A stretch of DNA of 21,988 nucleotides from a virus (IMGVR_UViG_3300032046_002140:1-21988); one strand, 5' to 3'; positions 6,043 to 21,730 are shown, counted from the first letter of the stretch. Notes: generated from the letters alone by a model not told the origin. Translations and numbers: made by a program.

Positions 6043-6076
6043 AAAAAAAGCTCTCGATATGGGGGCTTTTTTTAGT
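6043..6076 (+). terminator. Intrinsic terminator of the structural/lysis operon
   Basis: A perfect or wobble stem of 11 bp pairs 6043-6053 (seven A, then GCTC) with 6063-6073 (GGGGC, then seven T), with a loop of about nine bases. The 3' arm is itself the T-tract. It lies 25 bases after the endolysin stop. Because both arms carry A/T runs, it could work in either direction. Confidence 0.8.
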
Positions 6077-6379
6077 TTTAATCAATCGTTTTTAATACAC
6101 TTTTTTTCACTTCTAAGCGACTTTATATCTCTGGCACACATTCGTTCATAAACTTTCAGAAGTGACGGATGCCACGAGAGCCATAGCTGTAGCGCGTCAA
6201 TTTTTCACTGACTGGAAATTGATCCATTTTTGACGGTTTTCTAATCGACAAGTTTTTTTACACTCCTGGAACGGCAGCTAGGACACAATCTTGAAAATAG
6301 TTGAAATCTTTTATTGTTTTTTGTTAGGTAGATTCATTTATTCTACTTCTATTTGCTTCGAACATTAAAAAAAAACACG
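6074..6379 (+). promoter_or_regulatory. Long intergenic region upstream of the early genes
   Basis: About 300 bases without a supported gene, separating late structural/lysis genes from early genes. It holds copy A of the four-copy intergenic element (6094-6192), a 7-bp inverted repeat TCAATTT/AAATTGA (about 6197-6222), one of only two GATC sites in the window (6221), and a composite upstream element (TTAGGTAGA at 6324, then 22 bases, then the 28-bp repeat at 6355). T-rich stretches around 6250-6323 fit a promoter region, but no exact TAnnTTTG box was found. The main early promoter is probably here. Confidence 0.5.
6094..6192 (+). repeat. Four-copy intergenic element, copy A
   Basis: Shares 25 identical bases with copy B (6094-6118), then TAAGC, TTCATAAA, GAAGTGACGGATGC and CTGTAG at the same spacing as the other copies. 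An 8-bp stem can form between TCACTTCT (6107-6114) and AGAAGTGA (6158-6165). Within its loop CTCTGGC (6129-6135) can pair by its TGGC with GCCA at 6180-6183, making a weak pseudoknot. It could act as RNA or as a DNA-binding site. Confidence 0.7.
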
Positions 6380-10947: not shown

Positions 10948-11032
10948 CCCCTCTAAGCGATTATAGTAGTTTAACAGACGTTGGTTCATAAAAACAGAGA
11001 ACTGACGAATGCTATCTATCACAGAGCTCTAG
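10948..11032 (+). repeat. Four-copy intergenic element, copy C
   Basis: Primary sequence and spacing match copies A and B: TAAGCGAT (10954), ACGTTGGTTCATAAA, CTGACGAATGC (11002) and CTCTAG (11027). TAAGC to (G/C)TGACG is 48 bases here, 48 in A and 49 in B; (G/C)TGACG to CT(G/C)TAG is 25 in all three. The 7-bp stem of A and B is not kept; only CTCT/AGAG can pair. Confidence 0.6.
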
Positions 11033-14214: not shown

Positions 14215-14312
14215 TGTTCAAATGGTTAGGTTTAAGGCTGGGAGCAATCTCAGCCTTATTTGTTTTAATACAGTCGAGTAATGCTCAAATATGCACTTTT
14301 AAGCAATTATGA
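14214..14312 (+). CDS. Possible 32-aa signal-peptide-like micro-ORF
   Basis: An ORF of 32 residues starts on the stop of the SSB gene (TAATG, the same junction used at 4622 and 5156). The product has a basic start, a hydrophobic core (LRLGAISALFVLIQSSNAQ) and a signal-peptidase-like SNA-Q end. The hairpin at 14234-14257 lies inside it, and copy D of the intergenic element overlaps its end, so it may be a chance ORF. Included at low confidence because the junction and hydrophobic profile are suggestive. Confidence 0.25.
   Translation: MFKWLGLRLGAISALFVLIQSSNAQICTFKQL
14234..14266 (+). terminator. Intrinsic terminator after the recombination operon
   Basis: AAGGCTG (14234-14240) pairs with CAGCCTT (14251-14257), extended by two inner pairs, with a loop of about six bases, followed by ATTTGTTTT. 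It lies 20 bases after the SSB stop and would end the erf/YqaJ/SSB transcript. Confidence 0.7.
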
Positions 14313-14366
14313 GCGACTTTCTTATCCTTTTCATACTTGGTTCCAACACAACTCAAGAAGTGACGC
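14294..14366 (+). repeat. Four-copy intergenic element, copy D (divergent)
   Basis: CACTTTTAAGCAATTA at 14294 and CAAGAAGTGACG at 14355-14366 match copy B. CACTTTT (14294-14300) pairs with AGAAGTG (14356-14362), keeping the 7-bp stem with one G-U pair where A and B have C-G. The loop is 55 bases rather than 43-44, and it contains a second AGCGACTTT block like copy A. The 3' part (GGATGC...CTGTAG) is lost. Confidence 0.5.
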
Positions 14367-14379
14367 AAAATTTCAGATA

Positions 14380-14411
14380 TTTGCAAATAAAGAAAATAAT
14401 ACATAATATTG
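14380..14411 (+). promoter_or_regulatory. Bacteroidetes-type promoter for the DNA-modification operon
   Basis: TTTG at 14380-14383, 20 bases, then TAATATTG at 14404-14411. This matches the Bacteroidetes pattern of a TTTG -33 box, a 19-21 base spacer and a TAnnTTTG -7 box with one mismatch. Transcription would start near 14417, giving a leader of about 80 bases with a strong hairpin before the gene at 14498. Confidence 0.65.
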
Positions 14412-14732: not shown

Positions 14733-15341
14733 ATGGTGCAGAATGTAGAAGTTCTGGAGGTGAAAATTGGCGCAGTCAAGCCAAATCCAGTCAATCCGAG
14801 AACAATCAAAGAATCTAACTTTAAGAAGCTGGTTAAGTCAATCAAGGACTTTCCAGAGATGCTTTCAATCCGAGAAATTGCAGTTGACGAGAATATGGTT
14901 ATTCTAGGGGGCAATATGCGTTATAAGGCTTGTGTAGAGGCTGGTTTAAAGAAAATACAAATAGTCAAAATAACTGGACTTACTAAAGAGCAAAAGGACG
15001 AGTTCATAATCAAGGATAACGTCAACTATGGCAAATGGGACTGGGACATTCTGGCTAATTCATTTGATGATGGGTTACTACGTGAATGGGGAATGAATAT
15101 CTGGACTCCAGAGGACTATACGCTTGAGGCTTCTGAGGAGCTGGATTCAGATTCAGATACGGACTTTGGTTCTGGTTCTGGTGACACGATGAAAGTTCAG
15201 AAAAAAGTTATTCAGATTGAGTTCGTTATTACCGATTATTCTCACGCTAACGAACTGGTGAATTACCTCAAAGCACGTAAGGTAGATATTGGAGCTCTAT
15301 TAATCGAATCAATGAAAAAAGCACTAGAAAATGCAAACTAA
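14733..15341 (+). CDS. ParB-like (ParB/Srx fold) protein 1
   Basis: A 202-residue protein. Residues 8-75 match the ParB N-terminal nuclease-like domain: VLEVKIGAVKPNPVNPRTIK, SIKDFPEMLSIREIAVDENM, and VILGGNMRYKACVEAGL with the GGNMRY..C signature. KDEFIIKDNVNYGKWDWDIL follows, as in phage ParB proteins. An acidic Ser/Asp/Gly linker leads to a C-terminal helical part. No helix-turn-helix as in chromosomal ParB is seen. Phage ParB-like proteins often lie beside DNA-modifying enzymes and terminases; this one is followed by a paralogue and a dioxygenase. In this family the fold may bind nucleotide (CTPase or nuclease-like), but the activity here is unknown. Confidence 0.8.
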   Translation: MVQNVEVLEVKIGAVKPNPVNPRTIKESNFKKLVKSIKDFPEMLSIREIAVDENMVILGGNMRYKACVEAGLKKIQIVKITGLTKEQKDEFIIKDNVNYGKWDWDILANSFDDGLLREWGMNIWTPEDYTLEASEELDSDSDTDFGSGSGDTMKVQKKVIQIEFVITDYSHANELVNYLKARKVDIGALLIESMKKALENAN

Positions 15342-15900
15342 AGAATACAAAATTTCGGAACTGAAGCAATACGAGGACAATCCTAGAACGATTGATGTTG
15401 CAAAATTTGAAGCTCTAAAGGAGTCGATAAAAGACTTTCCAGAGATGCTTTCAATCAGACCAATTATAATTGATATGAGCAATGTTATTCTGGCTGGTAA
15501 TATGCGTTATCTGGCTTGTCGAGAACTTGGTCATACCACAATTTTTGCGCGTCAAGTTGACTTACCAGACGACAAGGTTCAGCAGCTTTTGATAAAGGAC
15601 AATTTATCCTATGGTGAATGGGACCAAGATGCTTTGGAGTTCAACTGGGATATGGATTTGGTAGACAAATGGTTAGGTAAAGAGCCAATGAACTACGATG
15701 ATGTTGACTACGAGGATTTGGAGGCTAATATTGAAAGTCTGCAGCAAGGGGTTAAAAAAGCTCTGCAAATCAACATCGACATCGACCAATATGAAATCGC
15801 GAAAGAGCTGGAGAAAAAATGTAGGGATGCCAAAATCTACATAGGAGGAGAGTTGATTGAGTTAATGCAACAAGTTAAGCTGGAGTATGAAAAGGATTGA
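15331..15900 (+). CDS. ParB-like (ParB/Srx fold) protein 2, tandem paralogue
   Basis: A 189-residue protein overlapping the first ParB-like gene by 11 bases. The same blocks appear in order: YKISELKQYEDNPRTIDVAK, SIKDFPEMLSIRPIIIDMSN, VILAGNMRYLACRELGHTTI, QLLIKDNLSYGEWDQDALEF. The C-terminal part (ALQINIDIDQYEIAKELEKK, then YIGGELIELMQQVKLEYE) also resembles the end of protein 1, so the duplication covers the whole gene. The linker differs, so the two copies have diverged. A heterodimer or two target specificities are possible. Confidence 0.8.
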   Translation: MQTKEYKISELKQYEDNPRTIDVAKFEALKESIKDFPEMLSIRPIIIDMSNVILAGNMRYLACRELGHTTIFARQVDLPDDKVQQLLIKDNLSYGEWDQDALEFNWDMDLVDKWLGKEPMNYDDVDYEDLEANIESLQQGVKKALQINIDIDQYEIAKELEKKCRDAKIYIGGELIELMQQVKLEYEKD

Positions 15901-16687
15901 TTTAGTCAAAGTTATCCACAGCTGTAAAGTTGGTGACAAGTGCAGCACAATGCGACCAAATGTAACGGAGGATTGCACGTTATACGAGGATGGTGTTATG
16001 GTAGGGTTCTACATCAAGGACGTAACCAAGTACAGTCCTAAACTGGCTAAATATTTAGCTCTGGCCAATCAAGAATTTCGTTCAAAAAGAGTTCCGAAAT
16101 CTGTTATGTCACGTTCATCAGCAATTGTGGCTCGGAGAGAGGGAGGCCACGGAGTTGAACAGTTTTCAACAATCATTGGTTCAATACCTCCCAAGCCTCA
16201 TATGAGGAGAGCTTATCCAACACGTAGCAGCGTTCATAATGTTAAAACAGCAGATTTGTTTGTCAAGGCTATGATGATGGTTTGTAGGGAATGTGAGGAG
16301 CTTATAAAACAAATAGCTCCAGACATCTATGCTGCTCAACTCGAAACGATTTCAAGTAAGGTTCCAGAGGAGTGGAGATTTGGAAATCTGTTTACCAGCT
16401 CAATTTCAAATTACAATATTTCAGCTTCATATCACATCGACAGTGCTAATCTTTTGGGCTGCGCTAATGTAATTTTGGCCAAACGAGAAAATTCATACGG
16501 AGGTCATTTATCAGTTCCAGATTATGGTGCAATCTTCAATTCAGCTGAAAATTCAATGTTAGTTTATCCAGCCTGGAAATCACTTCACGGAGTCACTCCA
16601 ATAGTTCCTACTCAAGCTGGAGGATATCGAAATTCACTTGTTTTTTATCCTTTGAGAGCGTTCAAATATGATGAAAATGAGCAGTAA
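15887..16687 (+). CDS. TET/JBP-like Fe(II)/2-oxoglutarate dioxygenase, putative DNA base hydroxylase
   Basis: A 266-residue protein. The C-terminal half is a double-stranded beta-helix with the full metal and cofactor set: NISASYHIDSANLLG (H183 and D185), GGHLSVPDYGAIF, KSLHGVTPIVP (distal H234) and GGYRNSLVFYPL (R248, the 2-oxoglutarate-binding Arg). The N upstream of HxD and the GG.L..P segment fit the TET/JBP group, which oxidises the 5-methyl of pyrimidines in DNA. The N-terminal part (RSSAIVARREGGHGVEQFST) contains substrate-side residues not recognised further. It overlaps ParB 2 by 14 bases. Thymine to 5-hydroxymethyluracil is the inferred reaction, because the genes after it act on that base; 5-methylcytosine cannot be excluded. 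Confidence 0.7.
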   Translation: MKRIDLVKVIHSCKVGDKCSTMRPNVTEDCTLYEDGVMVGFYIKDVTKYSPKLAKYLALANQEFRSKRVPKSVMSRSSAIVARREGGHGVEQFSTIIGSIPPKPHMRRAYPTRSSVHNVKTADLFVKAMMMVCRECEELIKQIAPDIYAAQLETISSKVPEEWRFGNLFTSSISNYNISASYHIDSANLLGCANVILAKRENSYGGHLSVPDYGAIFNSAENSMLVYPAWKSLHGVTPIVPTQAGGYRNSLVFYPLRAFKYDENEQ

Positions 16688-16689
16688 AA

Positions 16690-16703
16690 TTGTGTTTACA
16701 CAA
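16690..16703. promoter_or_regulatory. Palindrome, possible operator
   Basis: TTGTGTTTACACAA: 6-bp arms around two bases, three bases after the dioxygenase stop and 10 bases before copy B. No T-tract follows directly, so a protein-binding site is more likely than a terminator. Confidence 0.3.
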
Positions 16704-16712
16704 ATCATCGAG

Positions 16713-16812
16713 AATACACTTTTTTTCACTTCTAAGCAATTAACACCTATCTGGCAACACGTTGGTTGTAAATTTCAAGAAGTGACGGATTGCAAGTGAG
16801 CCAGAACTGTAG
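16713..16812 (+). repeat. Four-copy intergenic element, copy B
   Basis: The first 25 bases equal copy A. The 8-bp stem TCACTTCT (16726-16733) with AGAAGTGA (16778-16785) is perfect. TCTGGC (16750-16755) in its loop pairs with GCCAGA (16800-16805) downstream for six bases, a pseudoknot geometry. CTGTAG (16807-16812) closes the element 34 bases before the amidotransferase ATG. Confidence 0.7.
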
Positions 16813-16845
16813 AGGGGAGTAAAAAATATTTAATAAGCAAACAAA

Positions 16846-17466
16846 ATGTGTGGAATTGTAGGTTATTTTAGCAAAAATCCGAGTATGGAAGATGCTTTTG
16901 ACTTGTTCAAATTGATACGTCAATCAAAAATTAGGGGGGTGCATTCCTATGGATATTCATACCTTTCTGGTGGAAAAATTGTCACTAGAAAGTTCTTTCA
17001 AAATGAATTTAGGGATATAAAAATACCAACTTCAAACTTTTTTATTTACCATAATCGGTACTCAACTTCTGGTGATTTTCATAATCACGAAAACAATCAA
17101 CCAATTCATATTGACAATTCAAGCTTGTGCTTCAATGGGGTTATTGATATGGGGACCAAGGAGGAAATGGAGGAACGCTGGAGTATTAAGATGGAAACTC
17201 ACAATGACGGTGAAGTACTGCTAAAGGTATCTGAGTTCAATCCTAAAGCAATGTTAGAGCTTGTTTCAAGGGTTGGTTCATTTTCTGGGTTGCTGCTTCA
17301 AGACAGAACGCTATACGCGTTTACTAATGGTATGAGGCCAATGTGGATATACGTCAGAGGTGAATCAATGTTTTTAGCTTCAACGAAAGACATTTTTATA
17401 AGAGCTCTGGGAGATGTTGAGCCCTTTCAAGTACCAGCAAATAAATTGTTGAAATGGGAATTATAA
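16846..17466 (+). CDS. Stand-alone class II glutamine amidotransferase (Ntn hydrolase)
   Basis: A 206-residue glutaminase-type domain without a synthetase partner. After Met removal, Cys2 of MCGIVGYFSK is the nucleophile. HNRYSTSGD (69-77), NNQPI (83-87), CFNGVID (95-101, oxyanion NG) and HNDGEVLL (119-126) are the usual glutamine-binding and oxyanion elements of GATase II. It would release ammonia from glutamine. Full-length members (GlmS, PurF, AsnB) carry a second domain that uses the ammonia; its absence means a partner must accept it, possibly the neighbouring base-modifying enzymes. It lies between the dioxygenase and the acetyltransferase, behind its own intergenic element, and overlaps the next gene by 13 bases. 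Confidence 0.8.
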   Translation: MCGIVGYFSKNPSMEDAFDLFKLIRQSKIRGVHSYGYSYLSGGKIVTRKFFQNEFRDIKIPTSNFFIYHNRYSTSGDFHNHENNQPIHIDNSSLCFNGVIDMGTKEEMEERWSIKMETHNDGEVLLKVSEFNPKAMLELVSRVGSFSGLLLQDRTLYAFTNGMRPMWIYVRGESMFLASTKDIFIRALGDVEPFQVPANKLLKWEL

Positions 17467-17885
17467 TCACATCGGCCAAGGAAGAAGATGCAATCTGGAT
17501 AAAACAGTTGTACAAAGATGAAAAGGAGCATATTGGAGATTTCAATCTGTTTTACGTATGGGTAAATTACATTGGAGGCACCGGAACCAGCAAATTTATC
17601 GTAATTGGCAAAAAAGCTTTTATGAGATACAGATGGTCAGTTCAAGCCAATTCCTACATCATTGACGAGATGGCAGTAGGTAGTCTATTCAAAAAAGAGG
17701 GGCTAGGTAAACATCTGGTTCAATCTATGATGAAAAAAGCTGCCAGAGAGAACAAAAAATTGACTGTAAAGTGCAATGCAACAAATGACGCTGCTAATCA
17801 ATTTTACGAAAGATGTGGACTTCAATTTGAAGGGGAATACTACACAAAAAACAGAGGTACTAAACAATTTGTATGGACGACTTAA
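17454..17885 (+). CDS. GNAT-family N-acetyltransferase
   Basis: A 143-residue acyltransferase. The GNAT core is clear: IITSAKEEDAIWIKQLYKDE at the N-terminus, IDEMAVGSLFKKEGLGKHLV (strand 4 and the acetyl-CoA pyrophosphate loop, K80-G85 as R/QxxGxG/A), and NDAANQFYERCGLQFEGEYY (residues 111-130), the conserved end of the fold. It transfers an acyl group from acyl-CoA to an amine. Between the amidotransferase and the transferase-like gene, with 13-base overlaps on both sides, an amine placed on DNA or its precursor is the likely acceptor. A protein target is not excluded. Confidence 0.8.
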   Translation: MGIIITSAKEEDAIWIKQLYKDEKEHIGDFNLFYVWVNYIGGTGTSKFIVIGKKAFMRYRWSVQANSYIIDEMAVGSLFKKEGLGKHLVQSMMKKAARENKKLTVKCNATNDAANQFYERCGLQFEGEYYTKNRGTKQFVWTT

Positions 17886-18763
17886 AAAAATACTACGAAT
17901 ATCATCGCAAAAGCTCCGTAGCAAAGGACATAGACCCAGCGAATGATACACTGAGGTACATTTCTAACAGATTTGAGCTGAATATTGAGCAGAGATATTG
18001 GTTAGCATTCCTTTACGCTTGTACCTACTCGCCTACAACAGCTTATTACATTTATAATGAATTTCCAGACTTTGAGAATGTAGATGTCAACAGACTACAA
18101 CGATGGTGGGATATGAACAAAAAAGTTCTGATTTTCCAAACAGATAGGTTAAGGGTTAAGAGCTCCAATCAATTTGTTGCAGCTTTTCAATCTTACAAGG
18201 AGCTTATCGGTTCCAGCACACAACACAATTTTTTCTGCAGCTTGATTTTATCTACACCAGATAAGTCCTATGACAATGTTTACCAGAAATCATCTGGTAT
18301 TTTCACTTTTGGTAGGTTCACGTTATTCATCTACCTGGAGATGCTTCACGTTTTAACTGGCCTGGACATCGAGCCAACAACTCTCAATTTAAAGGAGGCA
18401 GAAAGCTGTAGAAATGGGGTTGCTCTGGCTTTCTCAATGTACAGTTTGAATACACACGGAACGGAGTTAAAAATCACTCCAACTGAAATTGAGCTGCTTC
18501 AAAATAGGTTCGCTGAAATCAAAAATCACGTTCAAAAAATGTCAATCGAACATACTAATATCTGGAACATTGAAACGACTTTATGCGCTTACAAGAAATG
18601 GAGGCTAGGCAAAAGGTATGTAGGGTTCTACATCGATAGGGCTGGAGCTGAGATAACCAAAATGAGTCAAAGTATTACAGATGGTATTGACTGGTCACCA
18701 CTCTGGGATTTCAGAAAGGAAACGTATGAGCACTTTAGACTTAAAGAACTTCAAAACAAATAA
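17873..18763 (+). CDS. aGPT-PPlase2 / amino acid:DNA transferase-like base hypermodification enzyme
   Basis: A 296-residue helical protein. Segments LAFLYACTYSPTTAYYIYNE with FPDF (44-67), RWWDMNKKVLIFQTDRLRVK (77-96), FGRFTLFIYLEML (146-158) and SCRNGVALAF (178-187) match my recollection of the alpha-glutamyl/putrescinyl-thymine pyrophosphorylase clade 2 family, also called amino acid:DNA transferase. In thymidine hypermodification these enzymes act on pyrophosphorylated 5-hydroxymethyl-dU in DNA, displacing pyrophosphate with an amino acid or amine. The kinase expected to make that substrate is the next gene. It overlaps the GNAT gene by 13 bases. Family recognition is by eye and the transferred group is unknown. 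Confidence 0.65.
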   Translation: MDDLKKYYEYHRKSSVAKDIDPANDTLRYISNRFELNIEQRYWLAFLYACTYSPTTAYYIYNEFPDFENVDVNRLQRWWDMNKKVLIFQTDRLRVKSSNQFVAAFQSYKELIGSSTQHNFFCSLILSTPDKSYDNVYQKSSGIFTFGRFTLFIYLEMLHVLTGLDIEPTTLNLKEAESCRNGVALAFSMYSLNTHGTELKITPTEIELLQNRFAEIKNHVQKMSIEHTNIWNIETTLCAYKKWRLGKRYVGFYIDRAGAEITKMSQSITDGIDWSPLWDFRKETYEHFRLKELQNK

Positions 18764-18764
18764 T

Positions 18765-19967
18765 ATGCAACTATTAACACAAAATTCGGACCTCAAACGA
18801 ACTGGAATATACGGATGGACTCTACCAGCCCACTGGGTTACAATGGACGATGGTTCTAAGGTAAATACTTGTCCAAATGCTGGGATTTGTGCTGCTTTCT
18901 GTTATGCCAAAACTGGTACTTTCAAATTTAGCAATGTACTCAAGGCTCACAGAGAGAAATTGGATTTAGTTATGAACCATAGGGATAAATGGATATCGAT
19001 GATGAATGAGGAGTTGAACAAGCCAAAATACATTGGAAAATACATCAGAATACACGACGCTGGGGACTTCTACTCAATCGACTATGCTGTAGACTGGTTA
19101 AATATTGCTAAAATCAACCCAGAGGTTAACTTTTACGCTTATACCAAGGAGGTTGATATGTTTAAAACCAAATTAGCTCAGCTTATACCGACAAACTTCA
19201 TTCTAATTTATTCCTTTGGAGGGAAGCAAGACAAAATGATTGATAGGGACAAGGATAGGCACTCTGACGTGTTTTACGACTACAACGAAATGATAAAGGC
19301 TGGTTACAACGATATTGGGAACGATGACAAACAAGCTGCTATTCATCCAAATCACAAGGTAGGGTTGTTCAGAAACAATTTACCACACTTAATCAAAAAA
19401 CAAGGGGCAAGAAACTTCTCGGATTGGCAATCTGGACACAAATCCGAAGCAAAAAAGATCCATTTTTCACACCCTAAAAAAATTTTACTGATTGGAGCAA
19501 CTGGAACTGGTAAAACTTGGGTAATGGAACAATTGCTGCTCAAGTATAAATGTAATCGGAGAGCGAAGCTAGGAAAGTTCTATTTTCATCGAAATGACAA
19601 TCTGGTAATTGTAGGGAAATACGATGGCTCAACCTTTCAAGGTTCTGACAGACTATCAATGTCAGTGGTTACCGATTTGGACAAGTTTCTTCAATACAGC
19701 TCGAAAGATTTTGTACTTTTGGAGGGAGATAGGTTCACCAATAAAACAGTAATTAAAGCTGCTGAGCCGATTATAATACGAATTATGGGTAATGGTGCAG
19801 ATGGGAGGTTTTCGAGAGGCTCTGAGCAAACCGATAGGCAAATCAAATCCATTCATACAAGAGTACACAATATTGAGCTACCAAGCAATGGTTATGAGGT
19901 TCAAAACTCTACCGAAGCTTTGGAGCTAATCACAAAACTAATTGATGAATCAAATGGAAGAAGCTAA
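18765..19967 (+). CDS. Fusion: GP88-like Cys-rich domain plus P-loop 5-hmdU DNA kinase-like domain
   Basis: A 400-residue protein; ATG 18765 follows the previous stop by one base. Domain 1 (about 15-210) has CPNAGICAAFCYAKTG with C36, C42 and C46, IRIHDAGDFYSIDYAVDW, and NFYAYTKEVDMF, as in GP88-like phage proteins; the Cys triad suggests an Fe-S or metal site and a barrel-like fold. Domain 2 (about 235-400) is a P-loop kinase: IGATGTGKT (243-251), GKYDGSTFQGSDRLSMSV (284-301), LLEGDRFTN (318-326), DRQIKSIHTRVHNI. The GSDRLSMS and EGDR blocks resemble 5-hydroxymethyl-dU DNA kinases, which place a pyrophosphate on hydroxymethyluracil in DNA. The linker near 19458 carries one of two GATC sites. 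Confidence 0.65.
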   Translation: MQLLTQNSDLKRTGIYGWTLPAHWVTMDDGSKVNTCPNAGICAAFCYAKTGTFKFSNVLKAHREKLDLVMNHRDKWISMMNEELNKPKYIGKYIRIHDAGDFYSIDYAVDWLNIAKINPEVNFYAYTKEVDMFKTKLAQLIPTNFILIYSFGGKQDKMIDRDKDRHSDVFYDYNEMIKAGYNDIGNDDKQAAIHPNHKVGLFRNNLPHLIKKQGARNFSDWQSGHKSEAKKIHFSHPKKILLIGATGTGKTWVMEQLLLKYKCNRRAKLGKFYFHRNDNLVIVGKYDGSTFQGSDRLSMSVVTDLDKFLQYSSKDFVLLEGDRFTNKTVIKAAEPIIIRIMGNGADGRFSRGSEQTDRQIKSIHTRVHNIELPSNGYEVQNSTEALELITKLIDESNGRS

Positions 19968-20349
19968 TAAGACAAGTGACACAAGTGACAACATAAAAAA
20001 GGAGCGTATGGTTGCAGCTCTGGAAAAAAGTCTGGGAATTGTTACAAATGCAGCAAAGGCAGTTGGAATTTCACGCAATACTCACTACCGATGGATGAAA
20101 GAGGATACCGACTACAAAAAGTCAGTCAATGACCTTGATAATGTGGCTCTGGACTTTGCAGAGAGTAAATTGCACGAGTCAATCTTTGAGGGCAATATAG
20201 CAGCAATCATTTTCTTTCTGAAAACCAAAGGAAAGGTAAGAGGCTACATTGAGCGACAAGAACTGGATATCAAAACAGACAAGCCAGACTTATCTGGGTT
20301 AACAACAGAGGAGCTTATGGCTCTGGCTTCAAATGAAGATAATGGATAA
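19945..20349 (+). CDS. Terminase small subunit-like protein (phBC6A51-type helix-turn-helix)
   Basis: A 134-residue protein. KKERMVAALEKSLGIVTNAA followed by KAVGISRNTHYRWMKEDTDY is a helix-turn-helix of the small-terminase/phBC6A51 kind, and LDNVALDFAESKLHESIFEG with AAIIFFLKTKGKVRGYIERQ is the conserved remainder. The acidic tail ends SNEDNG. It should recognise the packaging site and load the large subunit, whose gene it overlaps by 17 bases. The start at 19945 overlaps the kinase gene by 23 bases; ATG 19954 is an alternative. The link to the DNA-modification genes upstream is tight, so packaging and modification are probably co-expressed. Confidence 0.75.
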   Translation: MNQMEEANKTSDTSDNIKKERMVAALEKSLGIVTNAAKAVGISRNTHYRWMKEDTDYKKSVNDLDNVALDFAESKLHESIFEGNIAAIIFFLKTKGKVRGYIERQELDIKTDKPDLSGLTTEELMALASNEDNG

Positions 20350-21730
20350 AAAAGCTTTTGTTATACAACTGATGCAACAAGAACTGGCTAGACGTAACTT
20401 CTGGCAGTTCTGTTTGTATTATGACAAGGCTTTCTTCATTTCACGGCCATTCCTAAAGCAAGTAGCTGATGCGATGCAAGAAATTGATGAGGGGCTTATT
20501 AAGTCGCTATCCGTATCGATGCCTCCACGAGCTGGAAAGTCGTATATCACATCACTTTTTTGTGCTTGGACTCTAGGACGCAGCCCAAAGGAAAGCGTAA
20601 TGAGAAACACTTGTACGGCTACTTTATACCTCAAATTTGCGTATGACGTTCGACAAATATTTCGAGCAGATAAGTTCAATGAGGTATTTGCAGATGTAAC
20701 GCTATCCGAGGACAAAAAGAATCTTCAAGGCTGGAACACAAATCAAGCGAAAATGGTATCATACTTTGGGGCTGGAGTAGGAGGAACAATCATTGGATTT
20801 GGTGCAACAAAGGTCGCTATTACTGATGACCTTTACAGAGGGCTTGAGGACGCATTGAGCGACACAGTAAACGACAGAATTATTCAATGGAAAGAGGCTA
20901 CTCACGACTCACGTATGGAATCTGGCTGCAGCCGTATTGATATTGGTACACGCTGGTCAATCAATGATGTTATTGGGAGGGCAATGGCAGATAAAATATA
21001 CGACAAATCAATCATTCTAGCAGCTCTGGACCACAATGATGAATCACTTTGTCAAGCCGTTATGACAACAGACGAGTACCTGGACAAACGAAATCGAACA
21101 TCAAAAGAGGTCTGGTTAGCTGAATACCAACAAGAGCCAGTCGACATTCAAGGTAGGTTATTCGGTTCTTTGACTCAAACGACTCAAGCCGAGTTCAATA
21201 AAATAACAACACCAGACCCAAATAACCCAGCTCACAGAGGGAAAACGACACTAGTTGAGGGCTGTATAGCTTATGTTGATGTTGCTGACCAAGGAAAGGA
21301 CTATTTAGCTGCAGCAATCGGAGCAATCGTAGGGGACAGAGTGTATATCGTTGACTATGTTTTCACTAGGGACAACACCGATATAACAATTCCAAAGGTT
21401 GCCGAGCTGCTGAATAAGTGGAATGTAGCCTACTGTAGAGTCGAATCCAATGCAATGGGAGCAATGTTCAGTAGGGTTCTTTCTAGGACAACCAAAACGA
21501 AGATACTTCAAATCGCAAATCAGCAGAATAAAATTACTCGAATCATAATGAACTCGGCTTTTTTGATGCGTAGCTGCACATTCGTTGCAACTGGGACTCC
21601 AGAATCGACTCAATTTATTGACAACATTCTTTCATTCTCTAAGGAGGGTAAGAACAAAAATGATGATGCTCCAGATTGTATGGCTGGATTGAGCCAATTC
21701 ATTCAGTCAATGTTTAAGCAGTTTAGGTAA
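20333..21730 (+). CDS. terL: Terminase large subunit
   Basis: A 465-residue packaging ATPase and nuclease. Walker A SMPPRAGKS (62-70) and Walker B VAITDD (161-166, D165/D166) form the ATPase; IGTRWS near 204-209 and EYQQEPVD (264-271) are the usual linking motifs. The RNase H-like nuclease has YVDVADQG (314-321, D316), CRVESNAMGAMF (368-379, E371) and NDDAPDCMAG (443-452, D448). Length fits the shorter class of large terminases. It cuts concatemers and drives DNA into the procapsid. ATG 20342 is an alternative start. On this strand no T-tract follows, so transcription may run on into the convergent region. Confidence 0.93.
   Translation: MKIMDKKAFVIQLMQQELARRNFWQFCLYYDKAFFISRPFLKQVADAMQEIDEGLIKSLSVSMPPRAGKSYITSLFCAWTLGRSPKESVMRNTCTATLYLKFAYDVRQIFRADKFNEVFADVTLSEDKKNLQGWNTNQAKMVSYFGAGVGGTIIGFGATKVAITDDLYRGLEDALSDTVNDRIIQWKEATHDSRMESGCSRIDIGTRWSINDVIGRAMADKIYDKSIILAALDHNDESLCQAVMTTDEYLDKRNRTSKEVWLAEYQQEPVDIQGRLFGSLTQTTQAEFNKITTPDPNNPAHRGKTTLVEGCIAYVDVADQGKDYLAAAIGAIVGDRVYIVDYVFTRDNTDITIPKVAELLNKWNVAYCRVESNAMGAMFSRVLSRTTKTKILQIANQQNKITRIIMNSAFLMRSCTFVATGTPESTQFIDNILSFSKEGKNKNDDAPDCMAGLSQFIQSMFKQFR

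Follow-up and report, generated by a model that had tools for sequence, protein, structure and literature searches.

Two enzymes of the 5-NeOmdU pathway of Salmonella phage ViI (PMC11721090), a kinase and an amino acid:DNA transferase (ADDT; formerly aGPT-PPlase2, PF18724), have homologues in a gene cassette at positions 14733-19967 of the virus record IMGVR_UViG_3300032046_002140, a stretch of 21,988 bases that was analyzed as a whole and is called the window below. Beside the ViI kinase gene lies a thymidylate-synthase-family gene, which marks a nucleotide-level route, whereas the family to which the window belongs has a TET/JBP-like dioxygenase instead. Another ADDT, the 5-PmdU glycinyltransferase gp46 of Pseudomonas phage PaMx11 (8z2m and 8z2n), shares its fold with the window protein but is only 13% identical to it. 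PaMx11 reaches 5-NmdU via glycine and a flavoenzyme, not via glutamine. Lee and colleagues (2018, 2021) reportedly worked out the ViI and M6 routes, in which amino acids and acetyltransferases take part, and Iyer and colleagues (2013) are said to have predicted hydroxymethylpyrimidines made by TET/JBP enzymes as starting points.

In gene content, the window resembles Rhodococcus phage Tonitrus, for which a thymine hypermodification system with the core combination has been described (PMC11955845), and Gordonia phage Wooper, whose annotation contains the combination of ParB, TET, ADDT, and kinase. In these phages, as in the window, a ParB-like protein, a Tet-like J-binding protein, an aGPT-PPlase2, and a 5-hydroxymethyluracil (5-hmU) kinase are encoded next to the terminase. 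However, no amidotransferase or GNAT was found there, the ADDT and TET proteins are about 20-28% identical to those of the window, and the systems are known from genes alone. The core ParB-TET-ADDT-kinase route is therefore not new. A sequence-only reading of the window had proposed a complete alternative route to hypermodified thymine, which most of the computational checks support, albeit as a route already present in Tonitrus and Wooper. What appears to be previously undescribed is that one ADDT clade is strictly paired with a glutaminase of class II; a limited literature search met no description of such a pair, which is weak evidence of novelty. The cassette is probably a post-replicative thymine hypermodification operon, which may take its nitrogen from glutamine-derived ammonia.

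Other systems share single features with the cassette. The JBP/base J system and phage TET-associated glycosyltransferases (TAGT) have in common with it a TET/JBP hydroxylase, and a relative of the window TET is encoded beside a TAGT, but the window elaborates its product with a kinase and an ADDT and not with a sugar. In Synechococcus phage S-B43, CmoX/CmoY likewise bring an asparagine-synthetase-related enzyme into DNA hypermodification; their substrate, however, is carboxymethylcytosine, to which glycine is ligated in an ATP-dependent reaction (PMC12783734).

Pairing of a glutaminase with the ADDT transferase

The window ADDT (17873..18763, plus strand, like all genes given below) matched its Pfam family at 9.1e-27, with 94.7 bits against a cut-off of 26.2, and the ViI ADDT in a profile comparison at E 9e-26. 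Its AlphaFold2 model (mean pLDDT 95.7) was superposed on PaMx11 gp46 (8z2m) over 254 residues with a VIA-align Z of 19.6 and a root-mean-square deviation of 3.2, while the next fold scored 9.8. Both the hidden Markov model search and the fold thus place this transferase in a hypermodification family, as had been predicted from the sequence.

Upstream of it lies the gene for a class II glutamine amidotransferase (GAT; 16846..17466; Pfam GATase_6 at 3.3e-6, over the cut-off). The 206-amino-acid protein consists of a PurF-like glutaminase domain alone, in which the catalytic set C2, R71, N97, G98, and D121 is invariant among 33 aligned sequences. Its nearest solved structures are PurF enzymes (1.7e-8), and among NCBIfam models purF scored best (3.7e-11, under the cut-off). 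It has no phosphoribosyltransferase, SIS, or Asn-synthetase domain of its own, and the sole co-conserved synthase candidate is ADDT.

The order ParB-TET-GAT-(GNAT)-ADDT-kinase-TerS, where TerS is the terminase small subunit, was fixed in about 75 other viral loci, which is far beyond chance. A scan with the ADDT alignment yielded 80 loci, most of them outside the set from a TET protein scan of IMG/VR, in which 80 of 157 confirmed loci were kept; because the locus lists hold overlapping records of the same contig, these and the following counts are not independent. GAT was present in 83 fetched ADDT loci, and no GAT without ADDT occurred among the loci from the TET- and ADDT-based scans. Starting from the GAT side, ADDT was found in 66 of 67 new GAT loci, and the record of the remaining one ends just after its GNAT gene. 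The GAT gene is located directly upstream of the ADDT gene or is separated from it by GNAT alone. The pair was found in no cultured phage, while two relatives occur in Bacteroidota metagenome-assembled genomes. On the ADDT tree, one branch separates the GAT-coupled proteins from the others (support 66/85), and the GAT label requires one change versus 7.2 for shuffled labels. Pairwise distance-matrix correlations across 55 non-redundant loci were 0.67-0.89 within the cassette, with GAT-ADDT the highest at 0.89, and 0.45-0.64 between cassette members and TerS. Beside ADDT, nearly all loci encode a kinase of the window kinase family; of the nine that do not, eight encode a different P-loop protein. 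The family assignments of the cassette parts and their co-inheritance are supported by these tool results.

In PurF, ammonia displaces the pyrophosphate of phosphoribosyl pyrophosphate (PRPP). Because PurF and ADDT both displace (pyro)phosphate, we infer that GAT supplies ammonia to ADDT. The window GAT shares with PurF the class II glutaminase domain and all its catalytic residues, and the proposed chemistry would be analogous; it differs in lacking a phosphoribosyltransferase domain, its proposed partner being ADDT and its acceptor DNA. The clade of the window ADDT may use ammonia instead of an amino acid. In this widespread phage cassette, GAT and ADDT could then act together as the two components of a glutamine-dependent DNA aminase that converts (pyro)phosphorylated hydroxymethyluracil within DNA directly to 5-aminomethyl-dU, a proposal we make tentatively and rate slightly below an even chance. 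The third member of this group, the GNAT N-acyltransferase (17454..17885; Pfam FR47 at 1.5e-9 and Acetyltransf_1 at 1.5e-8, over the cut-off), is optional across the cassette loci, whereas GAT is always present, a pattern to be expected of a GNAT that tailors the amine.

Activated hydroxymethyluracil could instead receive an amino acid (Gly, Ser, Glu, or other) from ADDT, as in ViI and PaMx11, with the glutaminase amidating the carboxylate of the adduct or acting elsewhere and GNAT acylating the alpha-amine. The Pfam family name and the closest structure, both those of amino-acid transferases, favor this route, as do the related ADDT cassettes that lack GAT (L085, L090, and L002) and have other neighbors, e.g., a PALP-type pyridoxal phosphate (PLP) enzyme in L085. 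It fits poorly with the separate grouping of the GAT-coupled ADDTs and with the resemblance of GAT to the domain of PurF, whose reaction displaces pyrophosphate. Moreover, no Asn-synthetase-type partner for ATP-dependent amide formation was found, the 18 records searched having no Asn_synthase domain. We consider amino-acid transfer fairly unlikely, and less likely than direct amination.

Predicted hydroxylase and kinase

The Fe(II)/2-oxoglutarate dioxygenase of the TET/JBP type (15887..16687) is the predicted thymine hydroxylase acting on DNA. It matched Pfam Tet_JBP at 7e-11, with 42.1 bits against a curated cut-off of 34.9. The residues picked out by the sequence-only reading, H183, D185, H234, and R248, are precisely the invariant ones among 142 TET relatives, and the profile aligns with the HRD and HxTP...R motifs of TET2, which contain the HxD...H iron ligands and the 2-oxoglutarate-binding Arg. 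Two TET clades, about 20% identical to each other, accompany the same GAT-ADDT pair. One locus encodes a natural ParB-TET fusion protein (L177 5299-6825), and the label of PHROG_6059 on TET proteins, 'queuine tRNA-ribosyltransferase', looks wrong.

The thymidylate-synthase family (PF00303) was absent from all 28 records searched, i.e., the window and 27 related records, six of which are complete genomes of cultured phages that have related TETs, while phage ViI was matched as a positive control. C5-cytosine methyltransferases occurred in 2 of the 28 records, neither of them one of the six complete phages. Given the absence of PF00303 and the rarity of C5-cytosine methyltransferases, hydroxylation of thymine on DNA is the simplest reading of where hydroxymethyluracil would come from. 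This agrees with the earlier suggestion that no nucleotide-level hydroxymethylase is used, and it falls short of proof, since many of the records are incomplete and some activities could come from the host.

The same survey bears on two further explanations. If the substrate were 5-methylcytosine, TET would produce 5-hydroxymethylcytosine, which would then be phosphorylated and substituted. There is a report of a phage TET with a role in C5-cytosine hypermodification (Burke 2021, as cited and summarized in PMC12730594), but the scarcity of C5-methyltransferases and the fact that relatives of the kinase and ADDT act on 5-hydroxymethyluracil derivatives make a cytosine substrate improbable. Alternatively, a nucleotide-level hydroxymethylase encoded outside the window, which is only a fragment, could make the hydroxymethyluracil, leaving TET another role such as further oxidation. 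A divergent phage-type PF00303 gene does occur on a phage-like contig (L255 7753-8445) of the same Phocaeicola metagenome-assembled genome (MAG) that has a TET-less cassette on another contig; its linkage to that cassette is putative. With PF00303 missing from the 28 TET-related records, complete TET-ADDT-kinase phages included, we regard a nucleotide-level origin as very improbable.

The P-loop kinase (19474..19967) is 5-hmdU-DNA-kinase-like. Its domain gave no tblastn match among phage records, and it was therefore compared by profiles. The best PHROG was PHROG_800 (7.6e-8), which also contains the ViI 5-hmdU kinase (6.6e-67); the label of PHROG_800, 'terminase small subunit', looks wrong. 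In hhalign, the profile of the kinase clade aligned with the ViI 5-hmdU kinase across IGKYDxS...GxDxL with a probability of 94% (E 1e-7), versus 0.2% for the ViI nucleotide kinase used as a control, and the signature iGKYDxSxxxGxDxL is common to the window and ViI kinases. The structure model shows a nucleoside/nucleotide kinase fold (Z 11).

Proposed pathway and points against it

In the proposed pathway, the TET/JBP-like dioxygenase would turn thymine within DNA into 5-hydroxymethyluracil by hydroxylation, with the ParB-like proteins perhaps guiding or loading it, and the P-loop kinase would phosphorylate or pyrophosphorylate the 5-hydroxymethyl group; the family assignments argue strongly for both steps. 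GAT would then split glutamine and pass ammonia to ADDT, which would displace the (pyro)phosphate to give 5-aminomethyl-dU, much as PurF makes phosphoribosylamine from PRPP. The use of ammonia and not an amino acid has roughly an even chance and is the least certain step. Where present, GNAT would acylate the amine of 5-aminomethyl-dU. Phage DNA with this modification would be protected from host nucleases, most likely as a defense against bacterial restriction enzymes.

Such a pathway would give phages a shorter route to aminated thymine, carried out wholly on finished DNA with nitrogen from glutamine. It would represent a PurF-type reaction on a DNA base, with tailoring genes swapped behind a common TET/JBP start, and its enzymes could serve to introduce amine handles into DNA.

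Several points weigh against it. Gene coupling alone leaves ammonia transfer to be inferred, and phylogeny enters into both the correlations and the locus counts. The ADDT family takes its name from the transfer of amino acids, and the protein that best matches the window ADDT in structure uses glycine. Membership in the TET/JBP family leaves the choice between T and 5-methylcytosine unsettled, and absences in the window alone weigh little in a 22-kb fragment. The assignment of the kinase to a hypermodification family, made in the sequence-only reading, agrees with PHROG_800 and the hhalign result but not with Pfam HMUDK_HMUD1 (PF18748), whose cut-off the window kinase does not reach and to which the ViI kinase matches with 386.6 bits. 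Finally, TET-less cassettes occur on Bacteroidota MAG contigs from Prevotella (L252 8683-13118) and Phocaeicola (L253 8587-13168), with no TET detected in either genome. Downstream of ParB-GAT-ADDT-P-loop kinase-GNAT, in this order, they encode a radical SAM protein and the terminase, and an S-adenosylmethionine (SAM) synthetase gene adjoins the Phocaeicola cassette.

Exchanged neighbors and other features of the window

In the loci from the TET protein scan, the usual neighborhood is ParB-X-TET-TerS-TerL, where TerL is the terminase large subunit. X is an FkbM-type methyltransferase in L001 (PF05050, 4e-11), a TAGT in L018 (PF20691, 1.1e-10), and a P-loop kinase in L042 and L074. FkbM-type methyltransferases were also seen as exchanged TET neighbors in L007, L017, and L020, and a PALP-type PLP enzyme takes this place in L085 and L087, together with ADDT and kinase. 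The ParB-kinase-TET loci (L074 2562-3023 and L042 8898-9377) have no ADDT nearby; their end product may be phosphorylated hydroxymethyluracil, or a partner may be missing. TET/JBP would thus be the shared opening step, after which the second step is exchangeable (an FkbM-type methyltransferase, a TAGT glycosyltransferase, a kinase with ADDT, or a PLP enzyme), and the comparison yields predictions for nucleoside mass spectrometry and for the fate of hydroxymethyluracil in TET-bearing phages.

All seven open reading frames predicted at 14733-19967 were recovered where the sequence-only reading had placed them, and Pfam or PHROG matches back its calls of two ParB-like proteins, an amidotransferase, a GNAT, and an aGPT-PPlase2-like transferase. 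ParB-like protein 1 (14733..15341) matched Pfam ParB_N at 1.2e-6, over the cut-off; ParB-like protein 2 (15331..15900) matched a ParB-like PHROG at 3.7e-22 and ParB_N at 2.7e-4, under the cut-off. The two genes share a 110-nucleotide direct repeat (75% identical, copies 586 bases apart), and the second is a tandem duplicate of the first. In relatives, ParB distances track those of cassette members in the distance-matrix comparison. Downstream, the cassette is flanked by TerS (19945..20349; PHROG_4044, 1.1e-8) and TerL (20333..21730; PHROG_38, 3.4e-72).

The last gene of the cassette had been called a P-loop kinase, and its GSDRLSMS and EGDR motifs are present, but half of the fusion had been overlooked: a GP88 domain (PF17338; 18765..19473; Pfam 3.2e-45 to 7e-45), which forms an in-frame insert at the beginning of the kinase gene and is predicted with low confidence in the structure model. 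L003, a sister contig with 99.7% identity across 6.4 kb, lacks about 700 bases at this point (L003 6722 onwards), its kinase starting with MQQSKKILLIG. In L096 and L097, a close GP88 homologue stands free upstream of ParB, and other GP88 genes are located after kinase or TET genes. Because it is absent from the near-identical L003 and variably placed in other loci, we rejected GP88 as a pathway step; judging from these sequence comparisons, it is best read as a mobile neighbor, a hitchhiker recently inserted at the kinase gene.

A reading of the window as a defense system was not supported, PADLOC yielding weak domain-level matches only. The genes had also been described as tightly packed or overlapping; not all of them are, since a gap of 158 nucleotides separates the TET and amidotransferase genes and holds an intergenic repeat (16694..16812, no strand), possibly regulatory. 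A structured RNA at this repeat was not supported by folding z-scores (0.05, 0.35, -1.6, and -0.9) or by any Rfam match. The element (CACTTTTTTTCACTTCTAAGC ... AGAAGTGACGG) recurs in the window at 6075-6192, about 10970-11032, and, weakly, 14270-14390, and L098 and L005 retain part of it upstream of their GATase genes.

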